From Frankia sp. AgB32 (GTDB lineage: Bacteria; Actinomycetota; Actinomycetes; Frankiales; Frankiaceae), in the NCBI RefSeq assembly GCF_023243045.1, contig NZ_JALKFX010000026.1, forward strand, positions 1-64,000: a stretch of DNA of 64,000 bases, in the 5' to 3' direction. A program made the translations under genes and the position numbers. Below the pieces are notes generated by a model. That model worked only from the letters and a program-made list of their open reading frames with translations, searched no databases and had not been told where the DNA came from. Of this stretch, positions 37,802-64,000 are shown piece after piece (within the stretch, counting starts at the first letter, position 1; every line of letters starts with the position of its first letter).

Positions 37802-39147
37802 GTCGCCCTGGTTCTGCGGCGGGCCGCGAGCGCCGAGGCGCCGACTCCGGCGGCACGCAGCTTGCCAGCCAGCTGGTCAGAGAACTCCAGGTCGGTACGC
37901 ACCGCGCGACGGGACCGCGGGTCCCAACGCCACAGCTCCGACGACGTCACCCGCCCGTCGCGGTACTCGGCCACCTCACGCAGGGCGGTGACCACCCGCC
38001 GGCCCGCCACGGCCGCGACGTGCACGATCAGGTCGACCGTCGCGGCGATGGTCTCCAACGCCGCCGCCTCCGGCACCGGATGCGCCTCGAACGCGGCGTA
38101 GGTGCGCAGCCGCGCGACGACATCAGCGGCGCTGGGTGCGTGGATGGTCGCGGCCACCCCCTGCGCGATGCCCTGCCCGACGGCGAGCAGCAGCGGCAGG
38201 ACACCGCCGTCCGGGCGAAGCTCGCCGAGGAGCACCCGGTACGGGGTCTGCCGGCGCAGGTTCTCGGCGAGGTAGCGGGCCATCGAGTACTCGCCGCGGC
38301 CGTCGACGTTGCGTTCCCGGGCTTCGAACTCGACCAGGTTGCGAAACCGGTTGTGGTCCAGGAACAGCTCCTGCTCGTCCTCGACCGTCACGACACGATC
38401 AAGGATCTGCTCCTGCGGGGTCGCGTTGATCCACGCTCGCAGCAGCGTCGTCTTCCCGGCGCCCGTCCCACCCGAAATGATCAGGCCGAAGGGCTGCCGC
38501 ATCGCCGCCGTCCCGGCAAGCAGGTCGGCGACGTCCGGGGTGAACATGCCCGCGTCGGCCAGACCGTCCAGCGTGTCCAGGCCGGGCGCGAACAGGCGGC
38601 AGTCGATGTGGGTCAGCTGGGTGACCCGCGACACCGCGTGCACCCGTACCCCGGTCGGTAGCCGGAAGCGGACCGAGGGATTGGCCTCATCGAATCGGCG
38701 GCCGGCCAGGGCCGCGTGCTCAGCGACCCACTCGAACGCCTGGGCGTCACTGCCGAACGGCGAGCGGCCCTCGATCCGATCGCCGCTGCCCCGCTCGGTC
38801 AGTACCAGGTTGACCGCGCCGTTGACCTCGACGTCGGAGAACCTGTCCGCGAGCAGGAACGGACCGAGTGGGCCCAGCGGCGACTGGGCCTGCCGGACGA
38901 GCAGCCGCACCTCGTTCTCCGCCGCGGCATCAAGCTGCGGCAGGTCGGCGGTGCCGTACCGAACGTCGGCCAGTTGTCGGGCCAGCAACTCTTCGGCGAG
39001 CGCGGCGCGTTCCGTGGCGCTGAATCGGCGGCCGGCGCGGCGTGCCGCCACGACCTGGCGCTGGACCGCGGTGTTGATCGTCGTTGCGAGCTCCTCGACG
39101 ACCTGCGTGTCGCCCCTGGACCCGGTAGCGACCGGTGGCGATATCAC
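37798..39147 (-). CDS. tadA: TadA/CpaF-type pilus ATPase
   Basis: A 449-aa secretion ATPase that powers Tad pilus extension and perhaps retraction. The Walker A ISGGTGAGKTTLLRAW is near residue 227. The Asp box and Walker B region follow (RVVTVEDEQELFLDHNRFRN; YRVLLGELRPDGGVLPLLLA), with the His box in GVAATIHAPSAADVVARL. Conserved N-terminal FADRFSDVEVNG-type sequence (LADRFSDVEVNGAVNL) marks the CpaF subfamily. The GTG at 39147 overlaps the CpaB-like stop. Length is normal. Confidence 0.95.
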   Translation of the reverse strand: MISPPVATGSRGDTQVVEELATTINTAVQRQVVAARRAGRRFSATERAALAEELLARQLADVRYGTADLPQLDAAAENEVRLLVRQAQSPLGPLGPFLLADRFSDVEVNGAVNLVLTERGSGDRIEGRSPFGSDAQAFEWVAEHAALAGRRFDEANPSVRFRLPTGVRVHAVSRVTQLTHIDCRLFAPGLDTLDGLADAGMFTPDVADLLAGTAAMRQPFGLIISGGTGAGKTTLLRAWINATPQEQILDRVVTVEDEQELFLDHNRFRNLVEFEARERNVDGRGEYSMARYLAENLRRQTPYRVLLGELRPDGGVLPLLLAVGQGIAQGVAATIHAPSAADVVARLRTYAAFEAHPVPEAAALETIAATVDLIVHVAAVAGRRVVTALREVAEYRDGRVTSSELWRWDPRSRRAVRTDLEFSDQLAGKLRAAGVGASALAARRRTRAT

Positions 39148-47400: not shown

Positions 47401-48809
47401 AACGTCGGGGTCTGCTCGGTCAGCCCAGTCGGTCCGGTAAGACGAAGGCACAACTCGGCCAGTTCGTCCCCGTCGATTGCCGCACCGCGGACCGGCGCCC
47501 CGCTGCGTGTGTCCGTCGCGGCGAGGCGTCGGACCTGGTCTGGTGTCCACCCGGCGGCGGCCAGCTTCTCGTGCTGGATGCGGCGGACCTGCGCATCTGC
47601 GAGGACCTTCTTCGCTGCCCGTGAGCCGCGTTGCGCGGCGGTGGCTGTCACCCCGCCCGGGGTCAGCCCGTCGGCGACGAGCTGGGCGTACTCGGCCTGG
47701 ACCTCACCGTGCCGGGTCGAGAACGCCCCCAGCAGCTCCGGCGGGAATCCGGCGAGTTCGGCGACCCCGTTGCGTACCGGCCCCCACCGCACCCCGCGCC
47801 GCCGCGTCAACTCGTGGCGTAGTGCCGCCGCGCCAACGTAGCCGGCGGTCTTCACCTGGGCGAGAAACACCTCACCGTCCAACGCCCGCCAGTCCACCCG
47901 CGGGCGTCCTCGCTCGTCCATGACCGGCCGGCCCTGCTCGTCGGTCTCGGCGACCGCGGTCGCGTTGACCACGATGGAATGGACGTGCAGATGCGCCTCA
48001 TCGCTGCGCGACACCTCATGCAGATACGACGCCGCCGCCAAGCCAAGACCCGGACGGTTGTGGCCGCCCACGGTGCCGACCACCCCGTGCCGTTCCAGGT
48101 AGGCGAGGACCGCGTCGACACCGACATTCATCGCCGCTGCGACATCCCGACGGATCTCCTCATCGCCGAACGCCCAGAGCAACGACACCGACTTCGGCGC
48201 CGAACACGTCACGTCGAAACCAAGGACCACCGCAGGCGGCAACCGGTCAGCACAGAACCGATCGACCTCCGCCACGCTCACCAACCACCGGCCAGTAGCC
48301 TCCTCCCGCGTCGCCGCCAAACGGGGACCCTGGGCAGATGATGCGGCGGCAGCCCCGGTCGTGTCCGCCGGCTTCGCCCCCGCCGCCGCTTCGGTCCGAG
48401 CCGCCAACTCGCGCAGGTAAGAAGCGCTCACGCCGGCACGCCGCGCCGCTTCCTCCAACGTCAGCATCCCGTCGCCCGCGCCACCCGCAGGCCTCCGCTG
48501 CCCCGCAGACGCCGCCCGGCCTGCCGAACCGGACCCTGACAACAGCGGCCGACCCGTGACAGCATGATCACCAGACAGCAGCCGCTCCAGAGCCACCTCA
48601 GACACCGGGCGGTCAGCCGCCAGCCCCACCAGGTAGGCCGCCGAACCGCGCGCCCGGCCAGGCGCCAGACCCTCGCCGTAATACCGACGCAGCGGCGCCA
48701 TCGATGTCGGCTGCCCACCTTCCACATACGCCACCACCGCCCGCGCGGCCCGGGCCACCGCCGCCGCATCGCGCGCCCGCAGCGTCAACACCTTGACCGT
48801 CGTGATCAC
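44472..48809 (-). CDS. MobF/TrwC-type relaxase-helicase with inserted HTH
   Basis: A 1445-aa conjugative relaxase that would nick the origin of transfer, stay bound to the 5' end and unwind the strand. Tyr residues of motif I are in LRRYYGEGL near residue 45. The metal-binding three-His motif is HLHVHS near 270, after the conserved CSAPKSVSLLWAF. The helicase part has Walker A GPAGSGKTEAM near 620, Walker B VLILDEATQVATRDA near 690, and a UvrD-like end region (GYAITAAKAEGSS). An HTH-like segment (LTLEEAARRAGVSASYLREL) is inserted near residue 115 inside the relaxase domain. The GTG at 48809 begins VITTVKVLTLRARD; the frame is open to 49103 without a better start. Confidence 0.92.
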   Translation of the reverse strand: MITTVKVLTLRARDAAAVARAARAVVAYVEGGQPTSMAPLRRYYGEGLAPGRARGSAAYLVGLAADRPVSEVALERLLSGDHAVTGRPLLSGSGSAGRAASAGQRRPAGGAGDGMLTLEEAARRAGVSASYLRELAARTEAAAGAKPADTTGAAAASSAQGPRLAATREEATGRWLVSVAEVDRFCADRLPPAVVLGFDVTCSAPKSVSLLWAFGDEEIRRDVAAAMNVGVDAVLAYLERHGVVGTVGGHNRPGLGLAAASYLHEVSRSDEAHLHVHSIVVNATAVAETDEQGRPVMDERGRPRVDWRALDGEVFLAQVKTAGYVGAAALRHELTRRRGVRWGPVRNGVAELAGFPPELLGAFSTRHGEVQAEYAQLVADGLTPGGVTATAAQRGSRAAKKVLADAQVRRIQHEKLAAAGWTPDQVRRLAATDTRSGAPVRGAAIDGDELAELCLRLTGPTGLTEQTPTFDRQAVVRQVAAWSQDRLPGSEIDRLTDRVLADQRIVLLGRATPRARRDPEPVYTTQELLEVEDTLLALCRQGRVDAGAPPRLLVDSAVLEAHLGAARPPQPDGTAPATAGGGPGQRGGEAADPVVLTAEQINLVSRLLISGDLVRPVIGPAGSGKTEAMRLFTRIVRAAGGQVFATAHGGRQTEELVERIAVPGRVVSGWLTLLDHTDDLSRVWPAGSVLILDEATQVATRDAARLLRYAARTGTVLILLGDPAQLGAVGAGGWYAHLVAAAPDVPGLGALHRQAGAALAPVRAALGALRADTGASARRALDLLAADGRIRLFDSREALLAQVVDDWYAERAAHRATAGAARTPLGAASRMMAERTTRDVDLLACAARERLVADGTLTGPVLTVAGRDFQVGDEVITLTQAGHTLVPDGKPASAYIRTGTFGRIVDVHLDHDHPDRQAVTVRFAGKGTVRVPWDYLTHRFSDGRDGGLGHGYAITAAKAEGSSMPTARAVAPDDTSRAGLYVMLSRARTDLAAYIIRRADLEADLDEEDWLPVLRDPTGPLQRITEHLAQSRTERLASDHDHLAHAAHRLRRTHTLSDLARLPAGATPGATAGDADLGTPTSVDVAPAVHRRAELAAEAALAANAVANPPAGLVARIGPRPATGTDRARWDRTVGALAIHHARHQPPVPPQEPGPPPPPEEPAGTLRTRWILHHDQAVDLARSWADGLPNRTRARFHSQAEHVPRTRAIAGLHALLDHGHPPDDLLAALTSHEQSTARTGAAVLDHRVATLCKQQGLIPTDYLLPRPRPAREDWTELVGLLNTCEIHHQARRPTAHLAAERRRLLPTQTATLGRQGPDSDEIPEPAVGIRTDGRDELQLIEAALDQQIAHAVFRAGTDPADYLTGLLGTRPSNEPDAAAWDSRAETVEQFRHRHLGLPYGISATSDDDTNPRRQAIGEPPTDPSTATAYSRVLMLGPARTPALDL

Positions 48810-49428
48810 AGAGCGCGCCCCCGAAGTCGCCGGCCGTTCCGCCCGGGTGCCGTGCCAGCAGACGGCCGGACCGGCGCGGACAAGAATCACCCAGAAGATC
48901 ATCCTCGTTGGGGACGGCATCGCCGGTGACCTCGCCAGGTACCTCCCCGGGGTCATCTCCACCGCACCAGCCAGCCGGGGGCCACCGCGGGCGCCGTCCA
49001 TCCCATCCCCCGGGCGCGGAAACCATTCGTCAACGATCCCGAGATGCCGCCAGCCGGGACCGGCCACCGCGACGCGGCTCGCATCGCCATCGCGCCGGCC
49101 CACAGCCCGCTATCAGACCGATCTTGGTACGAAGGGCGGATCGGCATGGCGTCGCTGCGCGACACCCAGGATCACACCGCCCCGCCCACGACCGACTCCA
49201 GCACGACGCACATCGAGGTCCAACCAAAGCCAGGAGAAGGAGAATTACCGCAGGCGCCTTCTAAAGCTATCCGACCAATCAACAAAAGGAGCCACCCCGA
49301 AACGGCGACAGAAAAGCCGAGGAAATCCGGAAGAAAAACTCGCACTCCACGGTCAACCGGCGCGTCTATTTTGTAGAATTGTAGTGTGGCCGGGGAAACG
49401 GAATTCCAACATCGGACAGGGGCGGGTC
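48810..49428. other. Intergenic region, likely place of oriT; weak small ORF
   Basis: Over 600 bp between the divergent relaxase and DUF2786 genes. MobF origins of transfer usually lie beside the relaxase gene, so this is the best place to look. One inverted repeat is seen, CCGATC (49118-49123) and GATCGG (49139-49144) around a 15-nt spacer. A possible 76-codon frame starts at ATG 49146 after GAAGGGCGG and ends TAG at 49374; its product is polar and Lys/Thr/Pro-rich with odd codon use, so coding is doubtful. The right part is AT-rich, with TAGAAT at 49375-49380 as a possible -10 box for the DUF2786 gene. Confidence 0.4.
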
Positions 49429-51292: not shown

Positions 51293-53590
51293 TCACTGGT
51301 GCCGTTCCGCGTTTCCGTCGGTCGGGATCAGCGGACTGCGGGGGCCGTTCCAGCTGAGGGCGAGGGTATCGCGAGCCCGGGTGGCGGCAACGAAAAGCAG
51401 CGCCTGCGCCTTGCGGAGCTCCTGGGCGTAACGCACTGGGTCCCCGGCGGCGAAACGGTGGATGGCGGTGCGGGGGATGACGCCGTCGGTGACGGCGACG
51501 ATAGCCAGGTTCTGGTATTCGAGGCCTTTGAACCGGTGCATGGTGCCGACGTGGATCTGGCCGTCGCCCCGCGGGCCGTCCTTGGTGAGTTCGACGCAGG
51601 TGAGGCCTTCAGCGGTCAGGTGGTCGATGGTGCGGCCGACGAGATTGCGGTCGGCGACGCAGACGGCGATCCGTCCGGCCGGGTCCACCGCTGCCTGGCC
51701 CTTGGCGGTGGACAGTTGAGTGCGCCAGTCGATCAGGGTCTTGGCCAGCTCCTCGAGTTCCTTGTCCCAGGTCGGGTACCCGTCGACGGTGGGTCGACGA
51801 CCGTGCAGGACGGAGCGGTAGCCGGCGAGGGTGTCGGTGCCGTCGTCGAGATCGTCGTAGGCGCCGCGGCCGGTCGCCACGATGCGCAGCGCCCAGGCGA
51901 GGATCTCCCGGGTGGTGCGGTAGCTGAGGGTCAGCCGGCTGGAACGGCCGCGGATGTTGATGCCGAGCGGTCCGAGGGTCACGTGGTGGTCGTAGATGCG
52001 CTGGTGGGTGTCGCCCGCGATGAACAGATCGTTCGGGCCAGGGGGGACCATCGCGCGCAGCATCTTCCAGTGGGCGGCGCGGAGATCCTGGGCTTCGTCG
52101 ACGATGACGTGCCGGTAGCGGTAGGTGCGGTTGCCGCGGCCGGAGCTGTCGTCCGCCACGCGTTCCTGGATGCGGCGGGCGCGGTCGTTCTCGTAGCGGG
52201 CGGCGCGTTCGGCGGCCTGCCCCCAGGTTTCGATCCCGAGCTTGTCGAGCCGGGCGGTGAGCTGTTCGACGAGTTTCCAGATCCGGTTGCGGTCGAGCCG
52301 GGTGAGGGCTCGGCCGCGGCCGGCCCGGCGGACCTGGAAGTACTCGGCGCGCGTGGTAACGGCCTGGCCCAGGATGACCTGTTCCCATTCGTCGAACAGG
52401 AAGTCGGCGTCCCAGGCGGTTTCGCCAAGTTCAGCGAGGAGCTGGCGGAGTTCAGTGAGTGCCGCCTGGTCGCTGACGCGCCGCTTGCGATGGTGGGCTG
52501 AGGTGTTCTCACCAAGAACACGGGCGGCGAGCTGGTCGATGTGGGTGACGTCGACGCACGCCAGATCGGCCGGGTCGTTCAGCAGGGAGGCGAGCCTCAT
52601 CCGCAGGTCGCTGGCCAGGTTCGCCGTGTAGGTGGTGAGCAGGATCGATTTCCCTGCGCCGGGTGGGAGCTGACCGATGAGGTGCTTGACCCGGTGCAGG
52701 GCGACGATCGTCTTGCCGGTACCGGGGCCGCCGGAGACCCGGGCGGGGCCGCGGTAGTTCGCGTGGGCGACACGGGCCTGGGCGGGGTGGAGGAACACCT
52801 TCCAGGCCCGGAAGTCGCCTTCTTCGATGGCGGAGCGGACCTCGTCGTCGACGGTGGTGACCTGGGTACGGTTGAGGGCGGCGGCCATGTCGTCGAGGTC
52901 GGGCCGTACCTCGAGGCGGACGTGCGCGGTGATCTCGGCACGGACCTCATCGGGAGTCATGCCCGCTGCCAGGGCGTAGAGGACGTCCTTGGACAGCGCA
53001 GGGGCGCTGTCCAGAAGGATGTCGAGCTCGGTGTCTGTGGTGACGGCGAGGGCAAGCGGAATGAGCGGCTCGGCGACCCCGAGGTCAAGCAGCTGGTCAG
53101 GGACGTATCCGGCGAGCAGCGCTGGGGCGGGTTCTGGTTCGACCGGAAGCGCCGGCTGGTCCGGCTCTGGCACGCCACCAGGGCTGGGGGCGGGTTCCGG
53201 CTCCCGGACTGGCGTGAGGGTGATGCCCGCGCGGCGCAGGGCGCTGTCACCGACGACGGACAGGTCGACGAACTCGATTTCGCCGGTAATGCGGTTGATC
53301 GCGACCTGGAGCTGTTCGTAAACGTGCTTGCGGTCACGGATGGCGATCAGAAGCCAGCTCTGGGTGCCGTCGGGGTCCACGCCGGCCGGGGTGAGCAGCG
53401 CGCGGAAGTCGCCAGTGACCTTGGCCCGGTAGATCCGACCGTCGCCCTTGAGCGGCCTGAGGTCGAGGCCGGGCTGGTCGGGGTTGTTCCGGAAGGTATG
53501 GCAGAAGTCGTAGAACCGGGCCTTGATCCGGCCATCGAGCCGATAGACCTCCTCTTCGGCTTTGCGATAGAGGCTGATCCGGGCCTTCAT
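51293..53590 (-). CDS. UvrD-like helicase with N-terminal ParE/RelE-like domain
   Basis: A 765-aa protein. Residues 1-95 resemble a ParE/RelE toxin fold: RIKARFYDFCHTFRNNPDQP, then LRPLKGDGRIYRAKVTGDFR and IAIRDRKHVYEQL. Residues about 245-760 are a superfamily 1 helicase with Walker A SGGPGTGKTIVALHR near 287, Walker B HVIVDEAQDLRAAHWKML near 497, LTLSYRTTREILAWALRI, motif V GTMHRFKGLEYQNLAIV near 683 and motif VI VAATRARDTLAL near 737. It would unwind DNA or RNA-DNA. The start overlaps the stop of the large helicase by ATGA (53587-53590). It is the last gene of the defence-like operon, convergent with the AlpA-like gene. Confidence 0.9.
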   Translation of the reverse strand: MKARISLYRKAEEEVYRLDGRIKARFYDFCHTFRNNPDQPGLDLRPLKGDGRIYRAKVTGDFRALLTPAGVDPDGTQSWLLIAIRDRKHVYEQLQVAINRITGEIEFVDLSVVGDSALRRAGITLTPVREPEPAPSPGGVPEPDQPALPVEPEPAPALLAGYVPDQLLDLGVAEPLIPLALAVTTDTELDILLDSAPALSKDVLYALAAGMTPDEVRAEITAHVRLEVRPDLDDMAAALNRTQVTTVDDEVRSAIEEGDFRAWKVFLHPAQARVAHANYRGPARVSGGPGTGKTIVALHRVKHLIGQLPPGAGKSILLTTYTANLASDLRMRLASLLNDPADLACVDVTHIDQLAARVLGENTSAHHRKRRVSDQAALTELRQLLAELGETAWDADFLFDEWEQVILGQAVTTRAEYFQVRRAGRGRALTRLDRNRIWKLVEQLTARLDKLGIETWGQAAERAARYENDRARRIQERVADDSSGRGNRTYRYRHVIVDEAQDLRAAHWKMLRAMVPPGPNDLFIAGDTHQRIYDHHVTLGPLGINIRGRSSRLTLSYRTTREILAWALRIVATGRGAYDDLDDGTDTLAGYRSVLHGRRPTVDGYPTWDKELEELAKTLIDWRTQLSTAKGQAAVDPAGRIAVCVADRNLVGRTIDHLTAEGLTCVELTKDGPRGDGQIHVGTMHRFKGLEYQNLAIVAVTDGVIPRTAIHRFAAGDPVRYAQELRKAQALLFVAATRARDTLALSWNGPRSPLIPTDGNAERHQ

Positions 53591-56500
53591 CGAGTGGCGC
53601 CTTCCTGCCGGGGGCCTTCCTGGCCGGGGCCGAGAAGCGTGCGCAGCTCGGTGAGGTGTTCCAGCCAGCCGGCGGCGGTACGGATGGTCCAGCCTGCGGC
53701 GGCATAGGCGGCGTCGCGCCGCTCCCCTTCGTCGTCCCCGTCGCGGTGAGCGGGAACCACTGCGACCCGGTGGCCTTCCCAGCCGAGGTCGGCCTGCCAG
53801 CGGCTGGCCCCCAGTTCGTAGCCGGGAACCGGGACAGGCACGCCCCCGCGGGCCAGGATCTCGGTGAGTTGGCGCAGTTCGGGGACGTCGTCCTCCTGAA
53901 GCTCCCTGATTTCTTCCCAGGCCGCGTCGAGCGGCCCCTCGCTGGTCGCCGCATCGGCGGCCCGACTCGTCTGGATCATCGGCGCGGACGGCGGCGCGAT
54001 CGTGGGCGCCGCCTCGACTGCCAAGGCGGCCGGCGGCGTGCGGTCGAGCGAGTCGAGCTCACCGGCGCCACCGCACACGGCGAGTACCTCGACGGGGAAG
54101 TCGGCGGCAGTGCTGGTGGCGAGCTGCACACCGTCGCCGCCATTGGCGGTGAGGAACTGGGTGAGGTTGGTCCAGTACAGCCAGGCCCGCCACCGCTGGC
54201 GGTGACCGTTCTCGTCCAGGGCCACCGAGCTGTCGTCGAGGACGGCGACGGCGGACCAGCGCGGCGTGGCCGGCTCGGCGGCGTCGAGCGTGACGAGGAT
54301 CAGCAGGCCGTTGCCGTCGCGGCTCCGGAAGAGGAACCAGTCCCCGGCCGGCCCAGGCCGGCCGGGCGCGGCCGGGCGCGGCGTAGCACCGCCCAGCTCA
54401 CGCAGCTCACGGCGCAGCGCAGCGGCGAGCGAGTCGGGCTGGGCCGCGCTGACGAGCTGCTCGGTCCCGGGCGTGGGAAGAAGGCCGGCGACCAGCGCGC
54501 CTGCCAGCCGCGACCACCTGACCCGGTCCGGTTCCCGCAGATAGGCGATCAGACTGCTGATCGGGTTGGTGAACACGTGCGGCGCGAGCTGAGCGCGCTG
54601 GCCGCCGAACTGCTCGTAGGACTCCCGGGCGATCTGCTGGGCTCGCCCGTCGTAGGGCGGCCAGACCGGAACGCCGGGACGCTGCTCGAACAGGTCGACG
54701 TCGTCCCAGGTGATCTGGAAGACGGCCGCGCCGTCCGCGCGCAACCGGGTCCGGGCGGCGGCGTCGGGGGCGATGCGGTTGTGGTCGGCGGTGGCGTGGA
54801 AGCGGAAGCCTTCCAGGTAGACGTGGACCTTCTGGCTGGGCCCGTCGACCCGGGTGAAGGTGAAGTCGGCGCGGGTGCCGGCCAGCTGGTTCTGGGCGGT
54901 CAGCCGCCAGTGGACGAGGTCCTGGCCGGTGGTGAAACGCAGGTGGCCGCTGGCGTGGCCGTCCTCGTCCAGCGCGACGCCGTCGGAGATCCGCGCCCAG
55001 GTCCGTAGCGTGGCGAGGAAGCGGGCTTCCAGATCCGACTCGACCTGGCCGTCCAGGCCGACGTCGCCGGTGTTCGCGACGGCCGCGACCGTCCAGCCGT
55101 CCTCGCCGTCCTCGTCGAACAGCAGCGTTTCCAGCATGGCCTGCGCGGTCTGGCGGGAGACGACGTCCTGCTGGCGTTCGGGGGTGTAGCGGTGCAGGCA
55201 GCGGTGGCAGGCCCGGCGCTGCTCCTCGGCGCACGGGCAGGCCCCCAGCGCCTCGTAGGCGGCGCGCAGGGTGTCGCGCATCGCCTCCGGCGTGACGAGC
55301 CGGTCGAGGTAGCCGGTGCCGCCGGGCAGGGAGTCGAACAGCACCAGATACCAGCGCCGCTCCCCTGTGCCCGGGTCCGGCATCGAGGCCAGGGTCGTGT
55401 CCAGGTGCTGCGGATCACCGCCGAAGTGCAGGTCGACACCCATCCGCAGGGCGGCGCGGAATGACCACACCCGGGTGTCGACGTCGGCGGTGGCGGCCGG
55501 CAGCAGGATCCGCAGCGCTTCGGTGCGCAGCCGGTGGGCCAGCAGCACCGGCTCCTGGGTGACGCCGCTGTCGCGTTTCCCGCGGCGCAGGGGGCACCAG
55601 GGGCGATGGTGCTTCAGCGCCGGGTGGCGCGCCGCCGAGGAGCTGAGCGCGTCCGGGTCGTGGTCGAACACCGGCCGGCCGTCGGCGGTCGCCGCCCCGC
55701 AGCCGGTACACACATGGAAGGGAGCGATCCGGACCCGGTGGCCGGCGAAGTGGTCGTGGGACCGGGCATCGAACCGCAGGGGGCCGACGTTGATGCGTCC
55801 GATCATCGCGGTGCGGCAGTGGTCAAGGCCGAAGGCGGCGCGGGTGTGGCGCCAGGAGCCGGGCTCGAGCGCGTCGAGGGGGAAGTCGACGGCGTCGATC
55901 TCGGTGTAGAAGCGCTGGTCACGTTCGTCGCGGTCGTCGCTGATCCGGGCGTCCTCCTGCTTGTCGCGGGAGGTGACGGTGACCGGCTCGATCACCTGGA
56001 ACAGGCAGGACCCGTCGTCGGCGATGTGATCGGTGTGGCAGCGGGGGCAGGGCGAGCGGTCGGCGGCGGCGTTCTCGGTCCGCACATAGCCGCAGCCGGG
56101 GCAGAACCGCCAGGTCTGCCAGTCCCGCCGACCGTCAGTGGTGATCTCCAGGCCGGTGATCTCGTGGCGGTAGCCGTTCACGTAGAAGCTGTTGCCCGGG
56201 GCCAGCTCGGACAGCGCAAGCCGGCGCGGCCGCTCGTAGGACACTGTCTTCGAGCTGTACCGGGGCCGGCCGGTCGCCGGGTCGACGCCGTCCTGGCCGT
56301 ACAGAGTGGCCGACAGGGTGGTGGTCGTGTCGATCAGCGCGTAGTTCGGCAGCAGGCCCAGGTCGCACAGCGCGCTCTGTGCCGGCGTGTCCCCGACCTC
56401 GAGCAGCCGTCGGCTCACCCCGCGACGCTCGGCGTCCAGTTCTGCCCTCTGTTCGGCCTGCTCCGGGTTGGAGTCGTGCAGTTCGCCGGATGCGTCGTCG

Positions 56501-59500
56501 ATCGCCCGCAGCCGGGCTCGCAGCCCGTCCTCGGTCCTACGCCACTGTCGTTCGGCCTGTTCGACTGCGCTGCGCAGGCCGCCGGTGGCGTAGGCCCGCA
56601 GTTCCGTCTGGGCCTGGTCGCTGACGCCGGTCGGGAACAGGGCGAGGAACCCTCCGACCAGCTCCTCGCCGGAGGCGAGCGCGGACGCAACGAGGTCGAC
56701 CAGATAACCCGACGGGCCGAACAACGTCGGCGCGCGGCGGGGCAGGGCGCGCAGCACCACCCCGTCGGGCCGGGTCAGCCGGCCGGCGGCGGCCAGGTCC
56801 AGCAGGTGCGCCAGGTACTGGCGCCGAAGGATCTCCACCGCGGACAGGTAGCAGCCCGGCGGCACGATCTGCCCCGAGATCATGTCCTTGGGCCGGTCGA
56901 GGAAATACAGGTCGCGGCGTCGCCGGTCCAGGACGGTCAGCAGGAAGGCGTTGCCGGTGCGCCGCCCGGCCCGGCCGACCTGTTGGGCGTAGTTCGCCGG
57001 CCGGCGGGGCAGCGCGCCGAGCACCACCGTGGAGAGATCCCCGACGTCGATGCCGAGCTCCAGCGTCGGCGTGCACGACAGCACGTTCGGGTCCTTGAAC
57101 CCGGTGCCGTCGCGGAACGCCTTCTCGACCAGCTCCCGCTGGCGCCGGGTCAGCATCCCGGTGTGCTCGGCGGTAATCACCTGGTAGGGGCCGGCGGTCC
57201 GGTAGAGGCGGCGGTAGTAGTCCTGCGTGAAGTCGCGGTCGCGGTGGTGGCGGCCAAGTCGCTCGGGCTGGTCGCCGGCGGCCAGCTGCCGGTTGCGGCA
57301 CCGGTAGGACGGGCACGGCGCGTCACGCCACTCCTCCAGCAGCGACGGGTGCACCGTCTGCTCCCAGAAGCAGACCGGGCAGCGGACGAACGCGGCCCTC
57401 ACCTCCTCGTCGGTCAGCAGCTCCGCCTCGATGATCCCCGGTGACAGCCCGTAGAGCCGGGCGGTGGTGTCCCGCGGGGTGTGCGATGCCAGCAGGCCGG
57501 CGCCGACCAACGCGGGCAGCAGCGTCGCCCAGAACTCCGGGGCCAGCTCGCGCGGCAGTTCCAGGCAGCGGCCCGCCCACCGCTCGTACCAGGACAGCCG
57601 GCCGGCGGCGACGTCGAACTCGCTGCCCGGCTTCGGCTGGGCCAGCAGGAACAGCGGCGCGGCGATCCCGCCCGGGAACGCCCGCATGCCCAGTGGACGG
57701 CCGCCCCACACCCGGTACCGGTTCGTCCCCGCCTCGTCGAGATAGCCGGCCAGCCACTGGTGGGCGACCGCCCCCCGGGTCCGCAGCCGTTCCAGCGCGA
57801 CCCGCAGCAGCGCGAGATACCGCGCATCGTCCTGTTCGACGATCGGTAGCGTCGGCCGACCCAGGTCCTCGTGGGCCTTCCGGACCAACGCGGCCGCGCC
57901 GGCCGGATCGCTGACCCGGACGTGCGCCGCCGCCGTCCGGGTCAGCTCCAGGGTCCGGCCGTTACGGGAGCGGAACCCGAACTCCATCAGGGTGTCGAAC
58001 GCCAGCCGCTGCCCGATCAGCTCCCAGGTGGCCCGGTCACCGCCCCGGCCCGACAGCAGCTTCTCCACACCCCGCAGGCCGTGCAGGTCCGGCGGCACCA
58101 CCGCCGCCAGCGTCCGGCGCTCGGCGGGCGCCTCGACAACGGCGGTGATGACGTCGGCGATCAGGTCGTTGAGCGGGGTCGGCCGGTCCTCGCGGAGCTG
58201 GTCGGCCAGCAGCGCGCGCAGCGAGAACGTGAACGAACGGTTCGCGACGAACCCGGCCCGATGCGCGGCGTCCTGGACCGAGTCGTTGAACATCAGCGTC
58301 TTGTCCTCGCCCAGCTCCCGCTCCAGCTCGCCGGAGGTGAACAGCTGGGTGATCGCGGCGGCGGCGATTGCCGCCGGGCCCGTCCCGAGGAACCGGATCG
58401 CGTTGCGCTCGCCGCACGCCGGGCACCAGTCCTCCCGGGCCGCCGTGTTCGCGGTCGGGCCCACCTGGGCCAGGACGAACGCCGCGTCTCGCGCGGTCAG
58501 CCGGGGCTGGCCGGTCGCCGGGTCGTAGTCGTCGCGCAGGATCGGCGCCCGCAGCCGGTTACGCGCCGGGTCCAGCACCAGCAGCGCGCCGCCCACACCC
58601 GGCCCGGAGGGCGCTCCACGCCGGGCGCCGGGACGATTCGTCCCCACCCACTCCAGGGCCTCCTGGTCGGTGGCCGCGATCAGGTTACGGACCCGGATCT
58701 TGTCCGCCCCCGCCGCCGCCCGACGGATCTTGAAACCATCGAACTCGACGGCCTCGTCGTCGCTCTCCGGGGAGAACGCCGCCCAGCCCGACCGGCCGCA
58801 GGCCCGGCAGTACACCGCCGGCAGGAACAGGTTCGCCGCCGGCCCGCCGGTCGTGGTCGCCGCCGGCAGCATCCGGCCGCCGTCCGGCGCCGCTGTGTCC
58901 GCCGCGCCGGCGACAGCCCAGCGGAACTCCGCCCGCGGCCACGGCAGCACCCCCCGCAGCACCCGGCTCACCGACCGGGCCCACTGGTGCACCTCGACGT
59001 GGACGAACGGCCGCGGGGTCCGCTCCCCCCGCGACGTCGGGTCGTGGGCATAGGACAGCAACGCGACGAACCGCGCCAGCGCCTCGGCAGCCTTCTCCGG
59101 TCGCCGCGTGATGGCCTCCGACCAGCCTGACGCCCCGGCCCGCCACATCATGTCCAGGATCTCCGGGCCGGTCTTCACCTCCCCGTCGAGCGCGATCATG
59201 ACCGCCCGGGTAAACAGGTGAACCCGCAGCCGCTCGCCGAGCCGGAACCGGTCGGGGTCCCGCGCACCGGTGACCGCCTCGATCAGCTCCAGCGGCGGCT
59301 CCGGGTCGCCCGCCGGGTCGGGCAGCGCGAGCAGCTCGTCCGGCGTCGGGAGCGGCAGCTGCTTCAGGTTCCCCATCGGGACGAACGCGTCGACCGACAG
59401 CAGCCGCTCGCCGATGACCGCGTCCGCGGTGAACTCGGTGCCGAACACCTGCCCGGCCACGTCCAGCAGGTCACGCCGGCCTGCCTGCCCGGCCGACGAC

Positions 59501-60315
59501 AGCGTCGCCGACGTCGCCACCGGGCAGATGTCGCCCAGCGGCCGGCCCGGCCTGGAGGCGCCGACCGCCGACGCGAGCCGGCGCAGCAGCATCGCGGCGT
59601 CGGTGCCCTGTGCCCCGTCGTAGGTGTGGAACTCGTCCACCACCACATAGCGCACGTCGGCGTCCGCCCACAGCCGCACGTCGTCCGACCGCTGCAACAA
59701 CAGGTCCAACATCTTGTAGTTCGTGATCAGGATGTCCGGCGGGGACAGCTGCATGTCCGACCGTCGGGTCAGCACCCGGGCGTAGGTCACCGCGGCCCGG
59801 TCCCCGATGTACAGGCCGGCCCGGACCTGGCCCAGTTCCGCCTCGTTCGCGACCAGCAACTCGTTGAGCCGGTTCGCCTGGTCCGTCGCCAGCGCGTTCA
59901 TCGGGTAAAGCAGGACCGCCTTCACCCCGGCCTGGCCGGCGGCCCGCATCCGGCGACAGTGGTCCAACACCGGATACAGGAACGACTCCGTCTTCCCCGA
60001 CCCGGTGCCCGTCGTCACCAACGTCGGCTGCGGGACATGGCCATGCGCCGACGACAGCCGGGCGAACGCCGCCGCCTGATGGGCATACGGCGTGAAGCCG
60101 GACCGGTGCCACTCCAGGTGCCGCTCCCAGCCCGGATCGGCCATCAGGAACGGCGTCCGCACCCGCAGGAACGGGCCGCGGAACATGCCCGACGTCTCAT
60201 CGCCCAGGAACCGGTGCAGCGCCTCCCGCGCGCCCTCGTCCGCCAACGCGTAGGTGGTCGACAGGTACTGCAGCAGGCTTTCCCTCAGCCCGCGCGCCTC
60301 GAGCGTCGGCCTCAT
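53587..60315 (-). CDS. Giant DEAD/DEAH helicase with DUF1998 and nuclease-like domains
   Basis: A 2242-aa protein. Superfamily 2 helicase motifs: Walker A TTGTGSGKTESF near residue 105, ILITNYKMLDLLLQR near 200, Walker B VVVDEFHTYDG near 227, and motif VI QQVGRAGRRTGNAF near 1113 after TPTLELGIDVGDL. A DUF1998/zinc-binding region follows (LFDSLPGGTGYLDRLV, then ACPCAEEQRRACHRCLHRY near 1705). Near 1812-1835 GTRADFTFTR and VHVYLEGFRFHA resemble a Vsr/PD-(D/E)XK nuclease core, and a similar pattern recurs near 2172 (WQADLGWEGHRVAVV). The ATG at 60315 overlaps the methyltransferase stop (ATGA) and has GGAGGT 9 bases upstream. Closest known types are DruE of Druantia and DrmA plus DrmB of DISARM; no full match is claimed. 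Confidence 0.92.
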   Translation of the reverse strand: MRPTLEARGLRESLLQYLSTTYALADEGAREALHRFLGDETSGMFRGPFLRVRTPFLMADPGWERHLEWHRSGFTPYAHQAAAFARLSSAHGHVPQPTLVTTGTGSGKTESFLYPVLDHCRRMRAAGQAGVKAVLLYPMNALATDQANRLNELLVANEAELGQVRAGLYIGDRAAVTYARVLTRRSDMQLSPPDILITNYKMLDLLLQRSDDVRLWADADVRYVVVDEFHTYDGAQGTDAAMLLRRLASAVGASRPGRPLGDICPVATSATLSSAGQAGRRDLLDVAGQVFGTEFTADAVIGERLLSVDAFVPMGNLKQLPLPTPDELLALPDPAGDPEPPLELIEAVTGARDPDRFRLGERLRVHLFTRAVMIALDGEVKTGPEILDMMWRAGASGWSEAITRRPEKAAEALARFVALLSYAHDPTSRGERTPRPFVHVEVHQWARSVSRVLRGVLPWPRAEFRWAVAGAADTAAPDGGRMLPAATTTGGPAANLFLPAVYCRACGRSGWAAFSPESDDEAVEFDGFKIRRAAAGADKIRVRNLIAATDQEALEWVGTNRPGARRGAPSGPGVGGALLVLDPARNRLRAPILRDDYDPATGQPRLTARDAAFVLAQVGPTANTAAREDWCPACGERNAIRFLGTGPAAIAAAAITQLFTSGELERELGEDKTLMFNDSVQDAAHRAGFVANRSFTFSLRALLADQLREDRPTPLNDLIADVITAVVEAPAERRTLAAVVPPDLHGLRGVEKLLSGRGGDRATWELIGQRLAFDTLMEFGFRSRNGRTLELTRTAAAHVRVSDPAGAAALVRKAHEDLGRPTLPIVEQDDARYLALLRVALERLRTRGAVAHQWLAGYLDEAGTNRYRVWGGRPLGMRAFPGGIAAPLFLLAQPKPGSEFDVAAGRLSWYERWAGRCLELPRELAPEFWATLLPALVGAGLLASHTPRDTTARLYGLSPGIIEAELLTDEEVRAAFVRCPVCFWEQTVHPSLLEEWRDAPCPSYRCRNRQLAAGDQPERLGRHHRDRDFTQDYYRRLYRTAGPYQVITAEHTGMLTRRQRELVEKAFRDGTGFKDPNVLSCTPTLELGIDVGDLSTVVLGALPRRPANYAQQVGRAGRRTGNAFLLTVLDRRRRDLYFLDRPKDMISGQIVPPGCYLSAVEILRRQYLAHLLDLAAAGRLTRPDGVVLRALPRRAPTLFGPSGYLVDLVASALASGEELVGGFLALFPTGVSDQAQTELRAYATGGLRSAVEQAERQWRRTEDGLRARLRAIDDASGELHDSNPEQAEQRAELDAERRGVSRRLLEVGDTPAQSALCDLGLLPNYALIDTTTTLSATLYGQDGVDPATGRPRYSSKTVSYERPRRLALSELAPGNSFYVNGYRHEITGLEITTDGRRDWQTWRFCPGCGYVRTENAAADRSPCPRCHTDHIADDGSCLFQVIEPVTVTSRDKQEDARISDDRDERDQRFYTEIDAVDFPLDALEPGSWRHTRAAFGLDHCRTAMIGRINVGPLRFDARSHDHFAGHRVRIAPFHVCTGCGAATADGRPVFDHDPDALSSSAARHPALKHHRPWCPLRRGKRDSGVTQEPVLLAHRLRTEALRILLPAATADVDTRVWSFRAALRMGVDLHFGGDPQHLDTTLASMPDPGTGERRWYLVLFDSLPGGTGYLDRLVTPEAMRDTLRAAYEALGACPCAEEQRRACHRCLHRYTPERQQDVVSRQTAQAMLETLLFDEDGEDGWTVAAVANTGDVGLDGQVESDLEARFLATLRTWARISDGVALDEDGHASGHLRFTTGQDLVHWRLTAQNQLAGTRADFTFTRVDGPSQKVHVYLEGFRFHATADHNRIAPDAAARTRLRADGAAVFQITWDDVDLFEQRPGVPVWPPYDGRAQQIARESYEQFGGQRAQLAPHVFTNPISSLIAYLREPDRVRWSRLAGALVAGLLPTPGTEQLVSAAQPDSLAAALRRELRELGGATPRPAAPGRPGPAGDWFLFRSRDGNGLLILVTLDAAEPATPRWSAVAVLDDSSVALDENGHRQRWRAWLYWTNLTQFLTANGGDGVQLATSTAADFPVEVLAVCGGAGELDSLDRTPPAALAVEAAPTIAPPSAPMIQTSRAADAATSEGPLDAAWEEIRELQEDDVPELRQLTEILARGGVPVPVPGYELGASRWQADLGWEGHRVAVVPAHRDGDDEGERRDAAYAAAGWTIRTAAGWLEHLTELRTLLGPGQEGPRQEGATR

Positions 60316-63300
60316 CGCGACGGCACCTCCCGCCGCCGCGGGTCCCACTTGCCTTGGGCCACCGCGTCGTCCAGCCTGCGCTGGAACACGGCATGTGCCT
60401 CCCGCATCTCCTTCTCCCGGTCGGCCTTGTGGAACGGCGCTGTGAAGCCCTCCGGCGCGTCGGTGGGAGCCTCGGTCGCGCGGTACTTCTCGAACTGCGC
60501 CCAGCTCTCCTTCTGCTGCCGCTGACCGAACGTCCGCGCCTCTTTCGCGATCTTCCATCCGTCCGCGTCGAACCACGTCACGGCCTCGTACTTCTGCAGC
60601 ACCGGGAACCGGCCCCGGTAGGCCGCGATCAACGCGTCCGCGCTCATCCCCAGCCACACCGCCACCAGCGCATCGATCTCCACCAACGCCGACCGGCGCG
60701 CCCGCTCCGTCCGCAGCGGCGTCTCCCGCCGCCAGTCCGGCGCCACCTCGCCGAGGTCAGGCAGGCCCGGCCAGTCCCGCGCCCACCCCTCCCCCTGCGG
60801 CCAGCTCGGGTCATACACCTCGGTCCACAGGTCGGCGTAGGCGCTGGTCAGGCAGTTGAGCCGGAGCGTCCGCAACAGCAACGCCGATGCCAACGGATGC
60901 TCACGATCAGGTGCCGGCGTGGCCTTCGCACCCGCAACTTGTAGATCACTTCGGCCGGTCGCGCGGAGGAAGTAGTCGACCGGGAGAGAAGCCCAGAAGC
61001 CCGCGACCAGCACCGTCTGCCGCACCTCGGGCATGGCAAGGCTGTGTACCCCGTGGACGTGCGTGGGACCTGGCGGTATGAGCGCGCCGTACAGCGCCCG
61101 CTCTGTGTTGGGAGCCACCTGCCGACGCCAGGCCAGGCGATAGAAGTGGGTGTACGGCCGGCGGGCCAGCATTCTCAGCTGGGTCTCGACGAGCTGATCA
61201 ACTTCCCGTTCCGTGAGGTCGCGGGACAACGCTACGGAATCGCGCATGCGTGCGACCCGTTCGGCGTCGGCCCGTAGTCGGGCCAACTCGGCATGATCCA
61301 CCCAACGCTCCCGGTCGCGGGCCGCCTCGAACGCGGCTCGGTTCGATTCCACCGCGACGTAGGGCGTGTCGGGCACGAAGTCGGCCTCCAACGAGACCAG
61401 ATCCCTGCCGTGGGGATCGTTGCTGTTGGCGTCGTACCGTTTGAAGACCGCATTGGCCGCGCCGAACTGCACTCCCTTGAAGACGACACCGTCCCAGGTG
61501 GATGGCTGGACGCGCGCACGGTTGTGATCGATCAGGGAGGCTTCCTTCGCTCCTGTCTCGTTGAAACCGCTGGAAATCTGCGGCGCGAAAGCATCAAGCC
61601 GGAGCGGATAGCGGGAAAGTGCCGCGATAGCGTCCGCCTCGTTTGTGCTGACCGGGAACAGCAGGCGCGCCCGTGCGGCCGGCGCCGAAGCCCCGTCCAG
61701 CAGACGCCGCCAGACCTTCAGCATGTCCGGCGTCACATGGACCACACGCGCGCGGTGCGGACGTTCATCGAACTCGGCGTTGCGGTAGCGGATCCCGGGA
61801 ACGTCGCCGGAGCCGTCGTGGTTCTGGGAATGGCGCAACGCGTCGGCCGAGACCAGCCAGGACAGGTGGTCGAAGCCGATCTCCCCGGGCGGCCCGTAGA
61901 TGTGGACGCCGAAGTGAGTGGTGTGGCCGACGGGCTCCGGGAAGAATCGTTGCCCCGCGTTCACGAAGTCGCCGTGCACACGCAGCCGCCGGTACGCGGC
62001 CTCGCGCAGCGCCCCCTCATTGTCCCCGACGAAGTGGGTGTCCGTGTGGAGCATGCCGACGGTGCCGGCGGGCGTGGCATGTGCCCATGTCTGGGACATG
62101 AACGCCCGGTAGAGGTCAGGCTGGGTTCCCGCCAGCAGGGGGTAGATTTGCGGCGAGCTGAGGTAGGTGACCTGGGCACTAACCTTCGTGATCTCGTCGA
62201 GGAAGTACCGCTGCACGTCCGCTGCGGCGAGGAGGTCCTGGCGGCGTCGCGACCGCGTGGCCTCGGACGGCTTTTCCTCCAGCTCGAACCATGGCTCAAA
62301 CTCGGCCAGTACAGCGTTCTCGTCCCAGCTGGGCCGATACCAGGGGGGGTTGCCGACCTGGAGGTCGAACCCGCCCCGGTGAGCGAACACGTGGGCGAAC
62401 TCGAGCTCCCAGTGCAGGAATCCCTCCCGGGTGGCGATGTCCTGGACGACATGCAGCCAGGGGAAGCGCTCCTGCGGGTCACCCTGGTCCATGCCCATAT
62501 AGCTGGGCAGGGAGGCTTCGTAGGACTTCAGCTCGTCCAACGTCTGGATGGAGCTGACCAGCGTGCCATCGGGAATGTCGGTACTGCCCAGCATGCCCTC
62601 CAGGAAGTCCAGCCAGTCGTCGAGTTCCCGCAGAGGCACGACCCGCCGACGCGGTCGACGCTTGGACTTGGGGGTACTGGATTTCGTGCCCGCGGCCGCA
62701 GCTTCAACGACCTCCTTGAGGATCGCGGGGCTGCCCGCAGCCACAGATGTGGCAGCGTCGCGCACCTGCCCCGGAGTGGCTTTGGTCGTCGAAGAAGCGT
62801 TGCCGGCGCCCGCTTCACCAGTGCCCGCCGCACCGTCGGTCTCGTCAGCTTCCCCGAAGGCAAACGTGACCAGCGTGTGCGCGGGCCCGGCGGATTTCCC
62901 GGGCACCGGCACGGTGAGCAGCCGGACCAGGCTCTCGGCGGTCACCTCCTCCCGCTGATACACCGATGCCTCACCCGAGAGCAGGTCGACCTGGTCGAGG
63001 GGCCAGAACCAGAGGGCGCACCAGGCGTCCATCACCTGCTTCAGCCGCCAGTAGGGCGTGCCGGCGGCGTGGAAGAGATCCTCGAGGACCTGCTCCTTCG
63101 GCACGGCCTGTTCGGGACGGCGCAGCTGGTCGGGTGCGGCGCCCCAGACGTCGATGCGGCGCGAGATGTCCCGTTCGGAGATCTCCATCCGTCTGATGGC
63201 CACGGACCAGAGGAACTCGACTCGGCGGGCGGCGTCACGCAGCCGGGTGAACTGCGACACCGTCTCTGTCCTGGGCTCACCCTTCTTTGTGCGCTTCGGC

Positions 63301-64000
63301 GAGCCGTCCTTGTTCAGATGGCTGGTATTGCGCTTGGGGCGCCGCAGGACCTGCCTCTTCCAGGCGCCCAGGCCGGCGACCCGCTGCTCCGCCAGGGGTT
63401 TGGCCTCATGGGCCTCCTTCCCGCTGGCGATGGCGGCCCAGCCGGGGCTGGGCAGCAGAAACTGGTGGATGGCGTCGGCTGGGAACGGCTGTGGGTTGGC
63501 GCTGGGCTGGAACGGCAGCGATGTCGGGGCGAGGCCGCCTTTGGCCTTCAGCCAGGCCTTCGCCGGGGACGTGACGTCCTCGGCGGAGTAGATGGCACGG
63601 CGGGCGCCGATGAGGGAGTTGCCGCGGCGCAGGTGCAGGCCGAACCAGGGCGCCCGCATGCCGGGGTGCATCGTGTTCAGCCACAGTGACACCTCGGCCA
63701 GTTCGATGCCGGCGGGGTTCAGGTCGACGCCGTAGGCGTTGTGCAGCGCGATGTAGGCCTTGACCCGTTGCTTCTCGGCGAGCAGTTCCGACGTCGGGAT
63801 CGTCTGGCCGCGCTCCTCCTGAACGCGGCGGAGGTACTCCTCCGCGACCTGGTTGATCGCCTCGTTGAGGAACGCGCCCGACCCCAGCGCGGGCTCGCAG
63901 ATCGTGAACGTCAGCAGGTCGATGGCGCGGGTGTCCCGGTCGATCCGGTGCTTCAGCGCCAGCTCGACGGTGACCTTCGTCAGTGACTCGGGCGTGTAGT
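60312..64000 (-). CDS. Large N6-adenine DNA methyltransferase, 5' end outside window
   Basis: At least 1228 residues, with the reading frame open to the right edge. Motif I is CEPALGSGAFL at about 63870-63900, preceded by YTPESLTKVTVELAL. It is followed by NAYGVDLNPAGIELAEVSLW and by motif IV GNPPWYRPSWDENAV near 62345. These mark an Eco57I/PglX-like gamma-class N6-adenine methyltransferase with a long target-recognition region. A GTG at 63692 is not the true start because motif I lies upstream of it. No nuclease motif is seen in the visible part. It is followed without a gap (ATGA) by the giant helicase. In BREX and DISARM such enzymes mark host DNA; here that is inference. Confidence 0.93.
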   Translation of the reverse strand, partial: YTPESLTKVTVELALKHRIDRDTRAIDLLTFTICEPALGSGAFLNEAINQVAEEYLRRVQEERGQTIPTSELLAEKQRVKAYIALHNAYGVDLNPAGIELAEVSLWLNTMHPGMRAPWFGLHLRRGNSLIGARRAIYSAEDVTSPAKAWLKAKGGLAPTSLPFQPSANPQPFPADAIHQFLLPSPGWAAIASGKEAHEAKPLAEQRVAGLGAWKRQVLRRPKRNTSHLNKDGSPKRTKKGEPRTETVSQFTRLRDAARRVEFLWSVAIRRMEISERDISRRIDVWGAAPDQLRRPEQAVPKEQVLEDLFHAAGTPYWRLKQVMDAWCALWFWPLDQVDLLSGEASVYQREEVTAESLVRLLTVPVPGKSAGPAHTLVTFAFGEADETDGAAGTGEAGAGNASSTTKATPGQVRDAATSVAAGSPAILKEVVEAAAAGTKSSTPKSKRRPRRRVVPLRELDDWLDFLEGMLGSTDIPDGTLVSSIQTLDELKSYEASLPSYMGMDQGDPQERFPWLHVVQDIATREGFLHWELEFAHVFAHRGGFDLQVGNPPWYRPSWDENAVLAEFEPWFELEEKPSEATRSRRRQDLLAAADVQRYFLDEITKVSAQVTYLSSPQIYPLLAGTQPDLYRAFMSQTWAHATPAGTVGMLHTDTHFVGDNEGALREAAYRRLRVHGDFVNAGQRFFPEPVGHTTHFGVHIYGPPGEIGFDHLSWLVSADALRHSQNHDGSGDVPGIRYRNAEFDERPHRARVVHVTPDMLKVWRRLLDGASAPAARARLLFPVSTNEADAIAALSRYPLRLDAFAPQISSGFNETGAKEASLIDHNRARVQPSTWDGVVFKGVQFGAANAVFKRYDANSNDPHGRDLVSLEADFVPDTPYVAVESNRAAFEAARDRERWVDHAELARLRADAERVARMRDSVALSRDLTEREVDQLVETQLRMLARRPYTHFYRLAWRRQVAPNTERALYGALIPPGPTHVHGVHSLAMPEVRQTVLVAGFWASLPVDYFLRATGRSDLQVAGAKATPAPDREHPLASALLLRTLRLNCLTSAYADLWTEVYDPSWPQGEGWARDWPGLPDLGEVAPDWRRETPLRTERARRSALVEIDALVAVWLGMSADALIAAYRGRFPVLQKYEAVTWFDADGWKIAKEARTFGQRQQKESWAQFEKYRATEAPTDAPEGFTAPFHKADREKEMREAHAVFQRRLDDAVAQGKWDPRRREVPSR

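Follow-up and report, generated by a model that had tools for sequence, protein, structure and literature searches.

Frankia sp. AgB32 carries, at the end of the window studied here (the whole stretch of DNA analysed, 64,000 bases, corresponding to bases 1-64000 of the 77,007-base contig C122 in a host genome of 6.68 Mb), a set of large genes that an initial annotation had put forward as a candidate undescribed defence operon. The question raised by this locus is whether the operon belongs to a known system and, if so, what in it is new. By the features tested, it is a predicted member of ARMADA type II, in a kinase-bearing variant. The four-gene core, ArmA to ArmD, is already known, and the additions are a serine/threonine (Ser/Thr) kinase, a conserved tail of this kinase and its apparent single origin; the novelty thus lies in the kinase, which is encoded outside the part of the contig on which the initial annotation was based.

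The three open reading frames (ORFs) reported at the end of the window are present on the minus strand (Table 1), as are both ATGA overlaps between them (53587-53590 and 60312-60315 on the coding strand), and the proposal that they form one operon continuing upstream holds. The operon start lies outside the window: the contig beyond position 64000 adds the remainder of ArmB, ArmA and the kinase, together with a third ATGA overlap at contig positions 65825-65828. The complete operon consists of five genes, all on the minus strand of one contig, in the order Ser/Thr kinase, ArmA, ArmB, ArmC and ArmD, with the overlaps joining the last four and 52 bp separating the kinase from ArmA. The length of ArmC, 2242 aa, is counted from the ATG at 60315, the longest frame starting at a GTG at 60657. 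Upstream of the kinase, no believable gene was found on the same strand for 1.4 kb, up to a divergent integrase; two ORFs in the upstream region, P0008 and P0009, have no relatives among the 80 ArmB loci described below (E 1e-3) and were judged spurious.

Anti-phage activity of ARMADA type II in Escherichia coli was described in a 2025 preprint (Bell et al., September 2025, PMC12458937). According to its main text, the system consists of a BrxHII-like helicase, a PglX-like methylase, a YprA helicase and a RelE-UvrD helicase, in that order, the RelE-UvrD gene being the mark of type II, and Actinomycetota are one of its two main phyla. Protection by E. coli ArmABCD is described there as direct, non-abortive and requiring all four genes, and the helicase and methylase motifs matter for defence, which is fully or partially lost in mutants of ArmA K136 and D236, ArmB N971 and G605, ArmC K110 and D234, and ArmD K266 and D454 (PMC12458937). 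ArmA-ArmB-ArmC-ArmD of Frankia match this definition in set, order and domains, as judged with Pfam and PADLOC profiles. The initial annotation had rightly sensed the parts, namely, a DrmMI/PglX-like methylase, a YprA/DruE-like helicase with a likely nuclease end and a RelE/ParE-UvrD protein, and had stated that no named system with exactly these parts was known. As defined in the preprint's main text, ARMADA type II comprises exactly these parts plus the BrxHII/RapA-like helicase encoded past the end of the window (PMC12458937), and because the four genes match it in order and domains, the operon is not undescribed.

For a residue-level comparison, we used E. coli strain SC516 (L149), whose proteins fit the residue numbers of the preprint exactly. 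All eight mutated residues are identical in the aligned Frankia proteins: ArmA K178 and D277 align with K136 and D236, the ArmB S-adenosylmethionine motif G649 and NPPW N1160 with G605 and N971, ArmC K108 and D227 with K110 and D234, and the ArmD Walker residues K293 and D498 with K266 and D454. The likeness to E. coli ARMADA II (NCTC 12900/ATCC 8739) accordingly extends over the A-B-C-D order, the domains, the RelE-UvrD fusion and these eight residues. The Frankia operon differs in having the Ser/Thr kinase as its first gene, in Arm proteins that are only 29-33% identical, with longer ArmA and ArmB, and in sharing its contig with conjugation genes of the TraG and TrwC types. In SC516, ArmABCD directly follows DruH and DruE, as in the islands of the preprint, and ArmC is present in 518 of 5426 complete E. 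coli genomes. On the E. coli plasmid pYUYZMPE6-2 (L037:2093-5575), only the C-terminal part of DruE III, 1160 aa covering profile positions 906-2051, is found upstream of ARMADA II and is a remnant of the Druantia III partner.

The kinase is not peculiar to Frankia sp. AgB32. An ArmB-alignment scan of a collection of 84,980 species confirmed at least 545 relatives, of which the best 80 were kept; all 80 loci are from Actinomycetota by title, including Frankia sp. AiPa1 (L126) and Frankia sp. AgB1.9 (L087). ArmA is contained in 76 of the 80, and in each of the 75 loci that also cover its upstream side, a member of the kinase family lies directly upstream of ArmA on the same strand (75/75), with a gap of -49 to 283 bp when the start codon nearest to the expected start is picked. 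The five loci left out of this count comprise L068 and L127, considered below, and L075, L090 and L132, which end at a contig edge. Across the kinase-bearing loci, ArmA identity to the nearest query used drops to about 50%. Seven further loci, from family genomes and one plasmid of Streptomyces jietaisiensis (L035), display the same kinase-ArmA arrangement (L035, L041, L044, L046, L048, L050 and L052), although L041 and L052 are not independent of the 80 because they come from the same genomes as L087 and L126. An evenly drawn sample of 396 Actinomycetota genomes contains, apart from that of Frankia sp. AgB32 itself, seven that encode ArmA at E 1e-100, three with the kinase and four, of a compact Tsukamurella-like type, without it.

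Outside this clade, no kinase match was found in any of 11 ARMADA loci (four compact actinobacterial, Tsukamurella, E. coli, three alphaproteobacterial and two cyanobacterial), in each of which the region covered upstream of ArmA spans at least about 2 kb. In the ArmA tree, 26 kinase-bearing rows fall on one side of a branch and 7 rows without the kinase on the other, with a Shimodaira-Hasegawa-like approximate likelihood ratio test (SH-aLRT) value of 100 and long branches. The nearest outgroup is Tsukamurella, the sole compact kinase-less actinobacterial locus in that tree. These compact actinobacterial ARMADA II loci (the Tsukamurella plasmid L038 and L187-L190) have the A-B-C-D order in common with the kinase-bearing ones but no kinase match upstream. 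A single gain of the kinase at the base of the clade would explain the distribution. The main text of the preprint contains neither 'kinase' nor 'Streptomyces' (PMC12458937), and no report of an ARMADA-linked kinase was found among the papers listed, supplements aside, so that absence from print is not proven. As a separate observation, a WYL-domain protein is encoded directly upstream of ArmA, in the position held by the kinase in actinobacteria, in 3/3 alphaproteobacterial plasmids; different ARMADA lineages may have added different controllers.

In an alignment of 76 kinases, the ATP-lysine, the presumed alpha-C Glu, the HRD Asp, the catalytic Asn and the DFG Asp and Gly are invariant, a count that supersedes an earlier three-motif pattern found in 68/75 kinases. 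There is no membrane helix behind the kinase domain in the ARMADA kinases (hydropathy maximum of 1.31 versus at least 1.95 in 14/16 paralogues). The genome of Frankia sp. AgB32 contains 49 matches to the kinase, itself included; when compared with the 16 nearest of these paralogues, 26 ARMADA kinases form one clade with support of 100/100. Kinase and ArmA distances are correlated (Mantel r 0.82, with 0/2000 permutations as high, over 25 chosen loci). Both the tree and the Mantel test drew on 25 of the 75 kinases, hand-picked for diversity, and the latter excluded the own pair. The kinase thus shares its line of descent with ArmA and seems to have arisen once.

The C-terminus of the kinase consists of a variable linker of about 61-182 residues followed by a short conserved tail, roughly A-x-x-L-R-x-x-Y-A, which is followed by five residues to the end in 60/74 kinases. 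The motif is found in 74/75 kinases with one more residue allowed (73/75 in the stricter form), compared with 142/15,000 shuffled tails and 1/75 linkers. None of the 16 paralogues carries it, 14 of which are complete at the C-terminus, two being cut at the end of the sequence read. Across 35 family genomes, with at most 150 candidates scored per genome, the tail profile gave 10 matches at E <= 0.01, nine of them directly upstream of ArmA and the tenth weak (E 0.0074) and in a 74-aa frame; elsewhere in the own genome, the next match reaches only E 0.17. ArmA is found at 16 places in the window's family, 7 of them without a tail match. This architecture, a loose linker leading to a conserved end, resembles that of a docking site, and we regard the tail as a putative one. 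A search for a kinase-linked segment in ArmA-ArmD, setting the own proteins and those of 15 kinase-bearing loci against the 11 kinase-less loci and leaving out sequences with stops or of less than 60% of the length, singled out only ArmB 457-472 and 1020-1067, for which nothing is claimed because these segments are not Ser/Thr-rich.

Structural models add to the picture of two of the core proteins. The N-terminus of ArmD is predicted to fold like RelE toxins: residues 1-90 were modelled by AlphaFold2 with a mean predicted local distance difference test score of 86-95 over ten-residue blocks, the best Foldseek match is RelE of Thermus thermophilus (2khe, E 8.4e-6, probability 1.00), and the 20 best matches are all toxins of the RelE/YoeB/ParE/YafQ superfamily. 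In this RelE-like domain, R63 is invariant and Y91 at least 90% conserved among 23 sequences. Towards the C-terminus of ArmC, the pattern E, E, D, [D/E]-G, H, N, D (model positions 42, 46, 100, 118-119, 123, 129 and 134) is unbroken in 21/21 aligned sequences; the acidic residues placed here by the alignment include D1817 and E1835 of the Frankia protein. The three best structural matches of this region are or resemble PD-(D/E)xK nucleases, with Z values of 6.8, 6.5 and 6.0 that are below the firm level, and the weak matches are led by BsoBI and NGO0050. The alignments for the structure work took in 20/38 and 22/36 candidate relatives. The structure search returned no solved ArmB. For ArmC, no chain matched over the full length, the nearest, 9tu7_Y, matching best over the helicase core.

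Taken together, we consider it reasonably probable that the operon is an ARMADA II anti-phage system of a lineage that added a kinase, and that the kinase is most likely its switch. In such a system, ArmA and ArmC would act as DNA motors, ArmB would read or mark a DNA motif, and unmarked phage DNA would then be attacked and cut by the C-terminal nuclease of ArmC, with ArmD adding a further motor and the RelE-like domain. The kinase would dock through its tail on one of the ARMADA proteins and, by phosphorylating components of the system, would control the timing of its activity, whether positively or negatively. In BREX, PglX is more than a protective methylase. The same holds for ArmB, because its deletion abolishes defence in E. 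coli (PMC12458937, main text). DruE is reported to load on 3' single-stranded DNA and to cut long DNA in higher-order assemblies (PMC13192584); ArmC, being a cousin of DruE, may act likewise, albeit with a different nuclease.

Several points weigh against a kinase-switched system of this kind. No measured activity was seen for the Frankia operon or any kinase-bearing relative, and since E. coli ARMADA II works without a kinase, the kinase is dispensable for the basic mechanism. Among the Pfam matches of ArmA-ArmD there is no phosphopeptide-binding domain, and the kinase substrate, the docking partner and the phosphosite are hypothetical. The single origin and shared descent account for much of the linkage between the kinase and ArmA, and tight retention of the kinase argues for joint function without proving it. 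There are exceptions at the sequence level as well: in L068 and L127, the 10 kb preceding ArmB contain neither ArmA nor the kinase, which may reflect losses or rearrangements; the HRDLK lysine is replaced by Thr in one kinase (L072) and the DFG Phe by Leu in three; and one kinase (L086) lacks the tail. As for the proposed cutting activity, the nuclease region of ArmC gives no Foldseek match at E <= 0.001, and its structural Z values do not exceed 6.8.

The main rival to the switch role is an effector role, which we consider unlikely but worth weighing: the kinase would be a separate effector that, once ARMADA has sensed phage, would target proteins of the host or the phage for phosphorylation and halt growth, providing a back-up abortive layer. 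The full catalytic set and the lack of a membrane helix by hydropathy are compatible with this role, a back-up role has been proposed for the PglW kinase in a survey of BREX (PMC12839542), and the best PADLOC matches of the kinase are the defence-kinase profiles PD-T4-6 and MADS mad6. These matches, however, rest on the kinase domain, which is common to any Hanks-type kinase, and the kinase tracks ArmA in evolution and ends in a conserved tail resembling a docking site for a fixed partner.

It is rather improbable that the kinase is an ordinary signalling kinase which tunes expression only, or that it is a passenger which one lineage has kept through shared descent. The genome does contain 49 matches to the kinase, itself included, and other ARMADA II lineages have other first genes, for example, the WYL-domain proteins of the three alphaproteobacterial plasmids. 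Nevertheless, the kinase has been retained in 75/75 loci despite the fall of ArmA identity to about 50%, the ARMADA kinases form one clade with a tail unseen in paralogues, and the 35 family genomes yielded no noteworthy free-standing match to the tail.

That the operon is a variant of Druantia III or DISARM rather than ARMADA is very improbable, even though PADLOC-DB 2.0.0 labels ArmC as DruE3 (280 bits) and ArmA as DrmD (245 bits) and lists DrmMI among the matches of ArmB. The best PADLOC label is DruE3 for the helicase and type IIG for the methylase. This library predates ARMADA and misfiles the operon: a true DruE scores 2180 bits on the DruE3 profile, compared with only 348 for E. coli ArmC, which receives the same label. 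The Frankia ArmC is far nearer to E. coli ArmC, with which it is collinear over almost the full length (625 bits), than to DruE III of E. coli, which it matches in scattered pieces, the best of 108 bits in the helicase core. A small tree likewise separates nine ArmC proteins from DruE III and the plasmid DruE III fragment (SH-aLRT 100, long branches); it sets ARMADA II apart from DruE only, because no ARMADA I, BRIGADE or TALON protein is included. As described in the main text of the preprint, DruE belongs, like ArmC, to the YprA family of helicases and likewise has a nuclease region at the C-terminus, but Druantia III has two genes only, DruH and DruE, a PLD-type nuclease in DruE and no methylase, SNF2 helicase or RelE-UvrD protein, the last of which marks ARMADA II (PMC12458937). 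Class 1 DISARM shares with the Frankia operon the families of the SNF2 helicase (DrmD), the methylase (DrmMI) and the YprA helicase (DrmA), but has a separate DUF1998 part, DrmB, and a PLD nuclease, DrmC (PMC12458937, main text), neither of which is in the operon. The helicase and the DUF1998-type domain reside in one protein, unlike in DISARM, the MrfA Zn-binding domain being inside ArmC, and there is no PLD family in the Pfam matches of the five operon genes.

The claim that the operon lacks partner genes of BREX, DISARM and Druantia also stands, as none is present among the five operon genes. There is no DruH among them, although the library readily recognises true DruH and DruE, nor DrmB or DrmC; PglZ and BrxC are likewise missing from the five genes and gave no profile match in 10 further ORFs of the contig. 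BREX type 2/Pgl of Streptomyces does bring together a helicase, a methylase of the PglX kind and a protein kinase (PMC12839542). However, PglW of that system has 1400-1600 residues with nuclease, pseudokinase and DNA-binding parts, compared with 397 aa and a short tail in the Frankia kinase; BREX-2/Pgl is a parallel in logic, not a relative. Finally, ArmB scores 827 bits against the PADLOC 'type IIG' profile and might be a restriction-modification gene of that type, with helicase genes that merely happen to lie beside it. This possibility can be given hardly any credence, as the gene order around ArmB recurs in tens of loci, the genes are joined by ATGA overlaps, and all four Arm genes are needed in E. 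coli (PMC12458937, main text).

The kinase, apparently fixed once in this lineage and kept with its own tail, raises a testable question, namely, what phosphorylation adds to helicase-methylase defence. Kinase-bearing and kinase-less ARMADA compared in one host could show how large DNA-attacking complexes are restrained, and the answer may bear on BREX-2/Pgl of Streptomyces, with its parallel pairing of a kinase and a PglX-like methylase. For annotation, the 2023 profile set splits the operon into 'DruE', 'type IIG' and 'DrmD', the proper filing being ARMADA II plus kinase.

The conserved linkage of the genes across actinobacteria, for which the initial annotation had suggested a search, was recovered: 60/80 ArmB loci show an ArmC start downstream on the same strand, whereas in the other 20 it was not seen within the stretch covered. 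This linkage is far above chance. The gap between ArmB and ArmC in the 60 loci is at most 100 bp in 34 and 1.1-9.7 kb in 26, the latter departing from the strict order given in the main text of the preprint (PMC12458937). The Frankia operon itself is compact, with ArmB and ArmC adjacent. In 13/80 loci, NsnA, NsnB and NsnC are found together downstream of ArmB, with ArmC seen behind them in 10; NsnABC is the Menshen system. HEC-01A-like proteins (HEC-01-like ATPases) occur in 14/80 loci, in L127 upstream of ArmB, and a caspase-helicase protein, mostly of 1300-1450 aa, in 9/80. The nested modules often adjoin a reverse-strand helix-turn-helix/DUF5753 regulator; they were named via PADLOC and Pfam matches of representatives, and others were found by tblastn to one representative each. 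The main text of the preprint contains neither 'Menshen' nor 'caspase' (PMC12458937). The operon of the sister loci seems to act as a slot for other defence systems. The broader proposal of a phospho-switched ARMADA branch with a tail-docked kinase, in which the sister-branch operon is a chassis for whole other defence systems between ArmB and ArmC, is one that we put forward only tentatively.

Two loci related to these have a different make-up. At about 1.36-1.40 Mb of G031:C1 (L039/L040/L141), full-length ArmC and ArmD, 70-75% identical, accompany a shortened ArmB, and no ArmA or kinase was found in the upstream stretches read; this copy is decayed or rearranged. On the plasmid of Tsukamurella tyrosinosolvens (L038:1-23890), UvrD-type, helicase-related and DUF1998 genes precede ARMADA II, a second UvrD gene follows it, and the ArmC frame is split in two.

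The Frankia operon is probably carried by an integrative conjugative element inserted in the transfer-messenger RNA (tmRNA) gene. Its description as defence cargo beside mobile-element genes agrees with the excisionase-like gene next to ArmD and the conjugation genes on the contig (Table 1). The excisionase-like protein matches no Pfam family at 0.001 and, in PADLOC, has only a weak match to a candidate system (30 bits). The reading frame of the integrase terminates within the 3' portion of the tmRNA gene (contig 71625-73581, that is, L004:11626-13582), and the element therefore seems to be inserted in ssrA; transfer RNA (tRNA) and tmRNA genes are usual sites of the islands that carry such systems (PMC12458937, main text). 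A search of the contig did not reveal the opposite end of the element. On contig C84, 22 bases identical to the 3' end of the tmRNA occur at 1498-1519, where no tRNA was found; they are a candidate second attachment site only. Among 50,697 phage records, no full ArmB was found, only 2 weak partial matches.

Table 1. Location of the operon genes, their domains, neighbouring mobile-element genes and features of related loci. Positions refer to the window unless marked otherwise.
Feature	Location	Strand	Basis or remark
Ser/Thr kinase, 397 aa, probable first operon gene	contig 69024-70217	-	
ArmA, BrxHII/DrmD/RapA-like SNF2 helicase, 1048 aa	contig 65825-68971	-	
ArmB, PglX/DrmMI-like DNA methyltransferase, 1838 aa	60312-64000 in window, ends contig 65828	-	
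ArmC, YprA-family helicase with DEAD, Helicase_C and MrfA Zn-binding (DUF1998-type) domains, 2242 aa	53587-60315	-	
Putative PD-(D/E)xK (Vsr-type) nuclease domain, ArmC residues 1759-1870	54706-55041	-	
ArmD, RelE-UvrD helicase, 765 aa	51293-53590	-	ORF, profiles, Walker residues, RelE fold
RelE-like domain of ArmD, residues 1-98	53297-53590	-	AlphaFold2 model, Foldseek
Excisionase-like (AlpA/MerR-type helix-turn-helix) protein, 115 aa	50748-51095	+	read by eye
TrwC/TraI relaxase-helicase	44472-49103	-	Pfam TrwC, 184 bits
Secretion-type ATPase	37798-39147		
TraG/TrwB-type coupling protein	11016-13088	-	Pfam T4SS-DNA_transf, TraG-D_C
Tyrosine integrase	contig 71625-73325		divergent from operon
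tmRNA gene	contig 73218-73581		
WYL-domain genes	L143:3886-4746, L145:983-1870, L147:4751-5611		alphaproteobacterial plasmids
Nested-module examples	L124:15723-20813, L136:15426-24574, L121:15333-17245		Streptomyces ARMADA loci

The contig shared by the conjugation genes and ARMADA also carries a lanthipeptide-type cluster on the plus strand of the window (17975-24523), which encodes a full-length dehydratase and another protein that combines a dehydratase C-domain with a methyltransferase domain of the PCMT family.

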